NCBI GenBank assembly: GCA_016873805.1
Contig: VGVZ01000005.1
Span: 106,689 to 170,688, forward strand
Origin: Ignavibacteria bacterium
GTDB lineage: Bacteria; Bacteroidota; Ignavibacteria; UBA10030
Direction of reading: 5' to 3'
DNA: 64,000 nt
Shown: positions 27,759-63,338 of the stretch, piece after piece
Layout of the letters: every line of letters starts with the position of its first letter
Numbering within the stretch: the stretch's first letter is position 1
Position numbers and translations under genes: made by a program
Notes under the pieces: model-generated
The model's input: only the letters and a program-made list of their open reading frames with translations
Told to the model about the DNA's origin: nothing
The model's database searches: none

Positions 27759-27836
27759 CGTAGGTCGCACACGACGCAATGGATTGAATCTCACGAAAAA
27801 GTTGGCTATGTTTCTCCCCGTCGCGTTCGTAGTCCC

Positions 27837-27984
27837 GATTCACCCCATGATGCCGATTGAATCGGCAGAGTGGCGGGTGAATCCAGGATCCCGCAATGCG
27901 GGACTCAGTCGCAAAATGACTGATGTTGGCGAGCGCAGTGATTTCGAGTTCACTGTTATGTTGAGCATCCCCGCCAAAGGCGGG
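27837..27984. repeat. Cluster of perfect short hairpins upstream of tRNA-Arg
   Basis: GATTCACCC/GGGTGAATC (27837-45/27875-83), GCCGATTGAATCGGC (27852-66), TCCCGCAATGCGGGA (27889-903), CAGTC/GACTG (27906-10/27918-22), CCCGCCAAAGGCGGG (27970-84). Confidence 0.75.
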
Positions 27985-28001
27985 ACTGGCAAATGTAACC
28001 T

Positions 28002-39734: not shown

Positions 39735-39917
39735 CAGGTTGTTGAAAAAGTATTTTTCTGTCATTCTGAAGGAGCCCTGCCTGCCGGTTCACCCGCCGAA
39801 GGTGGGCAGGCAGGGAAGCGACTGAAGAATCTCGCTTTATGAGTCAGATTCTTCATCCCGCTAATAAACAGCGGGATTCAGAATGACATTGGACCGCGTT
39901 TTTCAACACCCTGTTAG
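39732..39917. repeat. Dispersed multi-hairpin element, copy 1 (contains a 39-bp insertion)
   Basis: TAGCAGGTTGTTGAAAAA…TTTTTCAACACCCTGTTAG with nested inverted repeats; near-identical to 62167-62313 apart from a 39-bp insertion. Confidence 0.9.
39776..39814. repeat. 39-bp palindromic insertion inside the dispersed element
   Basis: CCTGCCTGCC-GGTTCACCCGCCGAAGGTG-GGCAGGCAGG; absent from the copy at 62167. Confidence 0.85.
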
Positions 39918-41933: not shown

Positions 41934-42058
41934 TGTGGAGTGGCCGGAAAATTGTTGGATGTATTTCTGTTGCACATGGTACTCAAATGTGTTCCAGACC
42001 GCAAGAAGTTTGTGTTTGACTTTCCTTACGGTTATGGGTATATTGACTGCGGTTTTTT

Positions 42059-42135
42059 GGGCCGTTAGCTCAGTTTGGGAGAGCGCCACAATGGCATTGT
42101 GGAGGTCACCGGTTCGACCCCGGTACGGTCCACCA
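42059..42135 (+). tRNA. tRNA-Ala (anticodon GGC), CCA encoded
   Basis: GGGCCGTTAGCTCAGTTTGGGAGAGCGCCACAATGGCATTGTGGAGGTCACCGGTTCGACCCCGGTACGGTCCACCA; acceptor GGGCCGT/ACGGTCC, anticodon stem CCACA/TGTGG, loop ATGGCAT. Confidence 0.95.
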
Positions 42136-42398
42136 GTTCTCTGTCGAACACATTGGGGAAGAGTTTGGGAGAGCGTCCCGTCCCGGCATACGTCGTGACG
42201 GGAAGGTCACCGGTTGAGCGTTGTTTGCGAAATGCCTTTGGCATTCGACCCCGGTACGGTCCACCAGTTCTCTGTCGAACACATTGGGGAAGAGTTTGGG
42301 AGAGCGTTCCGTCCCGGCATACGTCGTGACGGGAAGGTCACCGGTTGAGCGTTGTTTGCGAAATGCCTTTGGCATTCGACCCCGGTACGGTCCACCAG
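42136..42398 (+). repeat. Two 131-bp tandem units derived from the 3' part of tRNA-Ala, carrying hairpin insertions
   Basis: CCACCAG occurs at 42130, 42261 and 42392 (131-bp period). The units differ at one position seen by eye and contain GTTTGGGAGAGCG, AGGTCACCGGTT and TCGACCCCGGTACGGTCCACCA from the tRNA. Confidence 0.92.
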
Positions 42399-42403
42399 GC
42401 AGG

Positions 42404-42435
42404 AAAAGGACAATCATGAACGATTGTCCTTTTTG
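42404..42435 (+). terminator. Rho-independent terminator ending the tRNA-Ala array
   Basis: AAAAGGACAATC-ATGAAC-GATTGTCCTTTTTG perfect 12-bp stem. Confidence 0.88.
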
Positions 42436-42457
42436 TTTTGTGAACGGAGAAGAGAAG

Positions 42458-42772
42458 ATGATTCCACGGAAGGTCCATCTCAGTCCACATGGCCAGCTCC
42501 TGATCGAATGGAGTGATGGTCACGAGAGTTCGATATCCCTGAGAACATTGAGAGAAATGTGTCCGTGTGCCTCATGTCAGGGAGAAACGGTGCTCCTTCA
42601 TCACTTCCCCCCAACTCCTCAACCCGATCTTCCAGGCAAGTACTCCTTGAGAGGAGCCGAGCAAGTCGGATCATATGCACTACAACTCACGTGGGGCGAC
42701 GGGCATTCCACGGGCCTGTACTCGTGGGAATATCTGAAATCGCTCTGCGAATGCGATCAATGTCGCACATAA
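42458..42772 (+). CDS. DUF971 (GBBH-like) domain-containing protein
   Basis: MIPRKVHLSPHGQLLIEWSDGHESSISLRTLREMCPCASCQGE…GSYALQLTWGDGHSTGLYSWEYLKSLCECDQC. Confidence 0.88.
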   Translation: MIPRKVHLSPHGQLLIEWSDGHESSISLRTLREMCPCASCQGETVLLHHFPPTPQPDLPGKYSLRGAEQVGSYALQLTWGDGHSTGLYSWEYLKSLCECDQCRT

Positions 42773-61958: not shown

Positions 61959-62166
61959 GACATTCTCCCATGATGGATGAAAAAGGACAGTTATGAATGT
62001 ACTGAGCTACGACGAGGAAGATTCAGGATGGTAACAAGTGGGGTCGGAGGGGAAACCTCTCTGTGAAGTCAGATCGCCATGTTCACTTACTGCGACTGAT
62101 GCAATAGTAGGGAAAAATTGACTTCCTGTCAAGTCTCAAACGATGCGGAGTAGCATCCGAGACTTT

Positions 62167-62313
62167 TAGCAGGTTGTTGAAAAAGTGTTTTTCTGTCATT
62201 CTGAAGGAGCGAAGCGACTGAAGAATCTCGCTTTATGAGTCAGATTCTTCATCCCGCTAATAAACAGCGGGATTCAGAATGACATTGGACCTCGTTTTTC
62301 AACAGCCTGTTAG
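62167..62313. repeat. Dispersed multi-hairpin element, copy 2 (147 bp)
   Basis: TAGCAGGTTGTTGAAAAAG…TGTCATTCTGAA…TGAAGAATCT…AGATTCTTCA…CCCGCT…AGCGGG…TTCAGAATGACA…TTTTTCAACAGCCTGTTAG. Confidence 0.92.
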
Positions 62314-63338
62314 TAGAAGACGGTGAATGGAACAAAGGAGAAACAGATGACAAACAGAAAGAGACACCCCCATCCAATCCACATGCGTCGTTCATCGAGG
62401 GGAGTCTCGTCCGGCACAGGTGGATGATACAGCTTAACCAAAAAGTACGATATCAGCGCCCAGAGAAACCAGCCGCTCCAGCTGTATTCAACAAACGGGA
62501 GAATATGACCCGGAACATCCCCGGAGACAAATCCTACGGCCAGCTGGAGCAGGATATCGGCTACCGAGGGGAGACCAAGGAAGAGGAGGAGAATGAATGC
62601 GGCGCGTGCGATCTTTCTGTGCTGATCACCAAACATTGTGTAGACGAGATGGCCTCCGTCGAATTGGCCGATCGGGAAGAGGTTCATCGCGGTCACAAAG
62701 AGTCCAAACCAGCCCACGCACAGGGCAGGATAGTGATAGATCTCAGACATCGGTGGGACGAACTGAGTCGATGGATCGGTGAAGAGATACACGAGGAATT
62801 TGAATGCGAGAGTCTGACCGAATTCAAGTCCGAGACCCTGGCTTCCGGGGATTGCGTTCAATTGGAAATCGTAATCCGGATGCATTTGGAGAATGAACTC
62901 CGGCCCCGGGAGCGTCAGAAGCCCGTAGACCAGAACAATGACGGTCGCCACAAAACCGGCGATCGGACCACCGACACCGATGTCGAACATCGCTTTCCTG
63001 CTCGGGACGACCGAACGGGTGCGGATGACGGCTCCCAACGTACCGAAGTTGAGAAAACCGGGAACGGGTGGGAATGGGATGAAGAAGGGGAGTGTTGCTT
63101 TGACACGATGATAGCGCGCGGCAAAGTAGTGGCCGAACTCGTGTGCACCAAGGACAAAAAGAATCGCAATCGAATACTCGAGCCCGTGGTGGAAGTACCT
63201 CAGTTCGAACGCGTCGAGATTCTTCCATTGAACACCTGCGACGGTTGCGGTGAAGAACGTGAGGAGGAAAAGGCCGAGATTGATCAGGAGACGGGGATCA
63301 AACGATGCAGAGGGGGAGGCAGATGATTCCTGGTCCAT
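62310..63338 (-). CDS. Site-2 protease family (M50) membrane metalloprotease
   Basis: VLGAHEFGHYFAARYHRVKATLPFFIPFPP (HExGH), NLFPIGQFDGGHLVYTMFG. Confidence 0.92.
   Translation of the reverse strand: MDQESSASPSASFDPRLLINLGLFLLTFFTATVAGVQWKNLDAFELRYFHHGLEYSIAILFVLGAHEFGHYFAARYHRVKATLPFFIPFPPVPGFLNFGTLGAVIRTRSVVPSRKAMFDIGVGGPIAGFVATVIVLVYGLLTLPGPEFILQMHPDYDFQLNAIPGSQGLGLEFGQTLAFKFLVYLFTDPSTQFVPPMSEIYHYPALCVGWFGLFVTAMNLFPIGQFDGGHLVYTMFGDQHRKIARAAFILLLFLGLPSVADILLQLAVGFVSGDVPGHILPFVEYSWSGWFLWALISYFLVKLYHPPVPDETPLDERRMWIGWGCLFLFVICFSFVPFTVFY

Follow-up and report, generated by a model that had tools for sequence, protein, structure and literature searches.

Tandem partial copies of tRNA-Ala(GGC) in an Ignavibacteria genome and their probable origin from a tRNA-linked GIY-YIG element

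The array behind tRNA-Ala(GGC)

An intact tRNA-Ala(GGC) gene with an encoded CCA lies on the plus strand at 42059..42135 of the window (the whole 64,000-nucleotide stretch analysed, from contig VGVZ01000005.1 of an Ignavibacteria bacterium). It is recognised by ARAGORN and by the Rfam tRNA model (58.6 bits, the RF00005 match spanning 42059-42132). In the reading proposed below it would be the parasitised gene. Two 131-bp units follow directly on the same strand, unit 1 at 42136..42266 and unit 2 at 42267..42397, as had been described in the original prediction. Each copies part of tRNA-Ala, has no ORF and shows rebuilt arms. The units are 99% identical, the sole difference being TCCCG in unit 1 against TTCCG in unit 2, within a hairpin. 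A simple assembly duplication is disfavoured, because the units differ by one base and lie inside a 170-kb contig.

Exact tRNA-Ala blocks in each unit are AGTTTGGGAGAGCG, AGGTCACCGGTT and TTCGACCCCGGTACGGTCCACCAG, in tRNA order. A 26-nt non-tRNA segment opens the unit (42136..42161; 42267-42292 in unit 2) and stands in place of the 5' strands of acceptor stem and D-arm alike; only the acceptor part had been predicted, and the replacement is wider. It occupies the site where relatives hold a GIY-YIG ORF. A first-arm hairpin between this segment and the kept D-arm block is possible by pairing, but 10% of shuffles do equally well and it is not established. The kept D-loop/D-stem 3' block follows (42162..42175; 42293-42306). 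Instead of the anticodon arm there is a hairpin, TCCCGTC-CCGGCATACGTCGT-GACGGGA (42176..42203; 42307-42334), which folds better than 99.4% of shuffles. The variable-loop/T-stem 5' block AGGTCACCGGTT is kept (42204..42215; 42335-42346). It is followed by a 30-nt T-loop insert (42216..42245; 42347-42376) ending in the hairpin AATGCC-TTT-GGCATT; inserts of 30 nt in the T-loop occur also in other GIY-YIG/tRNA elements. The unit closes with the kept T-stem 3' and acceptor 3' strands and CCA (42246..42266; 42377-42397). All these features are on the plus strand, and both the rebuilt anticodon arm and the T-loop hairpin agree with what had been noticed before.

A sigma-70-like promoter, TTGACT-17-TATATT (plus strand, 42016..42044, by sequence match), precedes the tRNA and likely transcribes it together with the units; a similar TTGAC...TATATT stands upstream of tRNA-Ala(GGC) in many relatives. 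The predicted terminator is present as an intrinsic terminator on the plus strand at 42403..42434. It is conserved behind tRNA-Ala in relatives and marks the empty site. A single transcript for the tRNA and both units, bracketed by these two signals, is plausible. Two mechanical ORFs over the array, 42106-42417 (minus strand, ending VPGSNR) and 42221-42772 (plus strand, starting MFAKCLWHST), are translated tRNA sequence. The true gene downstream appears to begin near 42460.

Neither unit matches tRNA or another Rfam family at E up to 1, so that the covariance check bears out the view that they are not standard tRNAs. No second copy of the 131-bp unit is found in the organism's own 3.2-Mb genome. 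An 83% match on contig C14 lies in a coding-like stretch and is put down to chance. The search of the same genome gives no GIY-YIG match at the array; the units encode no nuclease and would be at most a derivative of a GIY-YIG element.

The locus in relatives and the tRNA-linked GIY-YIG genes

In relatives the neighbourhood is conserved: tRNA-Ala(GGC) is followed by a terminator of the GGACAATC..GATTGTCC type and, in the usual case, by the same downstream gene. The space between tRNA and terminator is empty in most relatives and occupied in several, which is presence/absence at orthologous sites. Where a nuclease gene is present at this locus in Ignavibacteria-related genomes, it encodes a GIY-YIG protein of ~85-90 aa. 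In an Ignavibacteria MAG (G010, VGWB01) the space is filled by tandem 323-bp units, each with a 91-codon GIY-YIG ORF and then GGGAGAGCG-TCCCGTCACGATGAAGTCGTGACGGGA-AGGTCACCGGTTCGACC...CCAC. An ORF with a remnant is also found at the tRNA-Ala locus of G020 and, behind its own tRNA-Ala, in the more distant G028, of another family. The remnant stands alone, without an ORF, in G017 and G002; in the latter the tRNA copy is nearly complete, and its D-loop, anticodon arm and T-loop all carry inserts. In the aligned remnants TCCCG/CGGGA ends are found at the anticodon arm in all, with TTCCG in one window unit. The right part of the window hairpin, TCGTGACGGGA, is identical in the ORF-bearing G010 and G020. 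The key fact thus lies outside the window: in relatives the same remnant and anticodon-arm hairpin are joined to a GIY-YIG gene. Since the hairpin ends and TCGTGACGGGA are common to the window and these relatives, the window array is best read, from sequence, as an ORF-less member of the tRNA-Ala remnant group.

With the G010 protein as query, matches are obtained in 56 of the 61 genomes searched, often several per genome. The window's own genome has about ten, among them tRNA-linked ones beside genes for Asp, Pro, Ser and Arg tRNAs. Scanning named genomes yields 80 loci in Bacteroidota, Ignavibacteria, delta-proteobacterial groups, Nitrospirota, Armatimonadota, Patescibacteria and others; it used a closer alignment set, so that the 80 loci sample the clade closest to P0001 and not the whole range of small GIY-YIG genes. 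Most of the genomes are MAGs, and many loci stop at contig edges, as expected for repeats. At these loci 65 of 95 GIY-YIG copies lie no more than 300 bp from a tRNA gene, a rate that describes this clade because the set was found with tRNA-linked queries; by chance such proximity would be below 1%, given about 45 tRNA genes (an assumed number) in 3.2 Mb. All 65 are on the strand of the tRNA. The copies beyond 300 bp are mostly later tandem copies or lie close to contig ends. Linkage is a property of a clade and not of all GIY-YIG genes, since three in the window's own genome (L095, L098, L099) have no tRNA nearby. L095 and L098, at least, sit amid GTCCTGAGCGAAGTCGAAGGAC-type palindromic repeats, which points to another type of repeat associated with GIY-YIG genes.

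In 109 of 141 tRNA-nuclease pairs there is a partial tRNA copy whose score exceeds those of all shuffled controls. Two layouts occur. Type D consists of intact tRNA, nuclease and a tRNA 3' part, whose start often falls within the D-loop (at positions 13-21 in roughly one third of 70 cases). Type U consists of a tRNA 5' part, nuclease and intact tRNA, and its ORF often extends into the first bases of the intact tRNA. One locus of the window's own genome (L072:1200-2016) has tRNA-Pro(GGG) and two tandem GIY-YIG units, the first with an altered motif glycine (YVD for YVG). Near these elements automatic annotation may overcount tRNAs, because stretches beyond the intact tRNA (L160:2384-2457, L154:1-59) pass the Rfam tRNA threshold.

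The protein P0001 has a GIY-YIG domain (PF01541, E 2e-19) and is scarcely more than a catalytic domain. Y5, Y16, G18, R26, H30 and E62 are invariant in 23 GIY-YIG sequences. The nearest solved structures are UPF0213 proteins (1zg2, 1ywl) and SLX1. Tandem ORF copies give dN/dS of no more than 0.5 wherever it is estimable, a few pairs of very recent or very old origin giving no value, and this indicates purifying selection. When tRNA isotype is mapped on the nuclease tree it shows 34 changes, against at least 56 in 500 label shuffles. As some named loci come from genomes already included under G handles, the test was thinned by identity; after proteins more than 60% identical were dropped, 29 changes stand against at least 40. 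Host phylum is barely clustered (18 changes against at least 19 in shuffles, mean 21.7, on the tree unthinned for near-identical proteins). The nuclease thus follows its tRNA target more than its host. Such a phylogeny is at most consistent with site-specific cutting and copying into an empty allele. A phage or plasmid origin was considered and rejected, as it brought remote GIY-YIG matches only; close relatives of the nuclease are nearly absent from viral contigs (2 weak matches).

Hairpins in the tRNA remnants

Insert positions were counted between exact tRNA blocks, which gave 89 distinct inserts. They fold better than all 30 shuffles in 69% of cases. They are centred on loops in 58 of the 89 against 41 expected, a concentration that is only moderate. 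Recurring forms are the 18-nt hairpin TCCCG-n8-CGGGA, a 30-nt form made of two 15-nt hairpins with 3-nt loops, and a 22-nt form made of two 11-nt hairpins. Hairpins of the TCCCG..CGGGA type occur at 1.33/kb around the nuclease and 0.063/kb farther off in the same loci (odds ratio 21, p about 1e-51), are present in 51 of 80 loci, and are absent from 24 control tRNA loci without a nuclease. TCCCG ranks first among all 1024 possible 5-mer ends (111 near, 17 far). The inner stems are variable and yet complementary, even in adjacent units of one array (TCCCGTCTCTTTTCATTGAAAAGAGACGGGA vs TCCCGTCTCGTTCGGTAGAACGAGACGGGA in L050). The recurrence of hairpins with constant ends in tRNA arms and loops reveals a conserved architecture in relatives, not the random decay that the original prediction had set against it.

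Other palindromes are present in the window. A genome-wide palindrome family was considered and set aside, perfect hairpins in the window numbering 23 against 11-22 in shuffles, which is no clear enrichment. A palindromic, MITE-like repeat of ~150 bp (AGCAGGTTGTTGAAAAAG...TTTTTCAACA), which itself contains inner palindromes, is present twice, at 39740-39910 and 62165-62315. The first copy holds an extra hairpin (CCTGCCTGCC...GGCAGGCAGG) within a hairpin loop and the second is devoid of it, a case of one hairpin inserted in the loop of another. Several hairpins (TCCCGATTCACCCC..., GGATCCCGCAATGCGGGACT, CCCCGCCAAAGGCGGGA) at 27830-27990, just upstream of tRNA-Arg(CCG), are possibly the remains of another tRNA-linked element.

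Proposed origin and known systems

The two window units are quite probably a tandemly duplicated, ORF-less relic of a small GIY-YIG element that parasitises tRNA genes. The intact element would consist of a free-standing GIY-YIG nuclease gene of ~80-100 aa and a partial copy of the host tRNA, beside a complete copy on the same strand. The ORF is probably driven by the tRNA promoter, which would give a simple reason for the same-strand rule. An isotype-specific nuclease would cut its cognate tRNA gene; break repair would then insert or tandemly duplicate the element, one whole tRNA always remaining. Hairpins with constant ends (TCCCG...CGGGA), substituted for the anticodon arm and placed inside the D- or T-loop, would disarm the spare tRNA piece. 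They may remove cutting sites, keep a defective tRNA from being made or the precursor from mispairing, or shorten direct repeats that would otherwise delete the element. In the window lineage the nuclease ORF would have been lost and the leftover 131-bp unit duplicated. Because the units hold neither a nuclease ORF nor a recognisable relic of one, their presumed descent from an element with an ORF is based on the remnant architecture that they share with relatives and on the 11-nt hairpin arm. Three further points tell against the element. A homing enzyme would be expected not to cut its own allele, yet the adjoining intact tRNA persists. The nuclease has little beyond its catalytic domain. 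The inserts are no more than moderately concentrated in loops.

An independent palindromic mobile repeat entering hairpin loops, for which the tRNA remnants beside nuclease genes were merely a tolerated landing site, is a possible but rather unlikely source of the hairpins; it can be compatible with the parasite reading. Double hairpins of 30 nt and 22 nt, whose loops measure 3 nt, do recur in D-, anticodon and T-loops, and the palindromic repeat at 39740-39910, compared with its copy at 62165-62315, displays just such an extra hairpin in a hairpin loop. However, perfect hairpins are hardly enriched across the window, and the TCCCG type is concentrated around the nuclease.

It is improbable that plain decay produced the array, with the tRNA 3' part duplicated by unequal recombination, the hairpins supplied by fold-back repair and no nuclease element involved. 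Tandem repeats of a tRNA 3' end are found at E. coli tyrT, although the corresponding RtT family gives no match here. Fold-back repair, which in yeast yields short inverted duplications at breaks (PMC11724301), could furnish hairpins; constant TCCCG/CGGGA ends across phyla, concentrated beside GIY-YIG genes, are not expected from it.

Functional regulatory or decoy RNAs, that is, tRNA mimics with a CCA end kept for the host, are very improbable. Co-transcription with the tRNA is plausible, the CCA end and T-arm blocks are preserved exactly, and the variable inner stems remain complementary across elements. Against this, most relatives have no units at the same locus, no unit matches tRNA or another Rfam RNA, the hairpin motif is missing at the 24 nuclease-free tRNA loci, and the broad pattern follows the nuclease gene, not a host function. 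Of the origins first suggested, debris from hairpin insertion and duplication comes closest, and no support was found for a decoy or regulatory RNA. It is scarcely credible that the units are a small integrative element, or a satellite, for which the tRNA 3' end serves as attachment site of a tyrosine integrase: a 24-bp tRNA 3' end does recur, att-like, at every unit boundary, but the repeated parts reach the D-loop and are interrupted, repeated blocks are also internal, the 131- and 323-bp units have no integrase, and the gene found in relatives is a GIY-YIG nuclease.

The element reading may be extended beyond this locus. There is about an even chance that pan-bacterial, chromosomal selfish elements exist that combine an isotype-specific GIY-YIG nuclease with a hairpin-armoured partial tRNA and spread by cutting and rebuilding tRNA genes, that TCCCG...CGGGA is functional (an immunity or protein-recognition site), and that the window array is a nuclease-free derivative. 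As tRNA genes are essential and conserved, a parasite able to cut and rebuild them could cross phyla. Many 'hypothetical GIY-YIG' genes of environmental genomes would then be tRNA-gene parasites, odd tRNA pseudogenes would be their footprints, and the short hairpins in remnants would be a testable self-protection or recognition device. The family of chromosomal tRNA-linked GIY-YIG genes is apparently widespread and undescribed. No description is present in the open-access full text searched, and the passages of the 2006 GIY-YIG survey that answer to the search terms describe no chromosomal tRNA-linked family (PMC1564403).

Among known systems, the small UPF0213 / YhbQ-YazA GIY-YIG proteins are alike in that the nearest solved structures (1zg2, 1ywl) belong to them; their structure titles and domain are silent on tRNA linkage or mobility. 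Fungal and algal mitochondria contain double-hairpin elements and GC palindromes that are short and probably mobile. The present double hairpins are alike in this, but are located next to a bacterial GIY-YIG gene, within partial copies of a tRNA, and their TCCCG/CGGGA ends are constant. In Allomyces mitochondria an endonuclease insert carries its own piece of atp6 and leaves a remnant. There too an endonuclease gene enters a gene, supplies the displaced part and leaves a remnant, whereas here the target would be tRNA genes, the host is bacterial and the remnant is rebuilt with hairpins. At E. coli tyrT the 178-bp repeats (RtT RNA) are tandem units behind a tRNA gene, each with a tRNA 3' end. 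The window likewise has tandem units behind a tRNA gene that hold a tRNA 3' end; they differ in keeping D-loop-to-CCA blocks with hairpins, in belonging, as proposed, to a nuclease element, and in the lack of an Rfam RtT match up to E 1.

The closest precedent, by analogy, is SegB, which phages T4/T6 encode in their tRNA region as a free-standing GIY-YIG homing endonuclease. Its gene is found together with tRNA genes, and SegB brings about the tandem amplification of a tRNA-segB segment (PMC13096335). In both cases a GIY-YIG nuclease adjoins tRNA genes of many isotypes, and the amplification of the tRNA-nuclease segment after a DNA break and recombination (PMC13096335) resembles the tandem arrays of the present family. 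Under the term 'hairpin', the SegB paper yields neither hairpin-disarmed partial tRNA copies nor TCCCG hairpins (PMC13096335). SegB is a phage gene, whereas the present family is chromosomal, with close relatives nearly absent from viral contigs. If the element reading holds, this family would be the chromosomal counterpart to SegB and might account for tandem repeats that follow tRNA genes.
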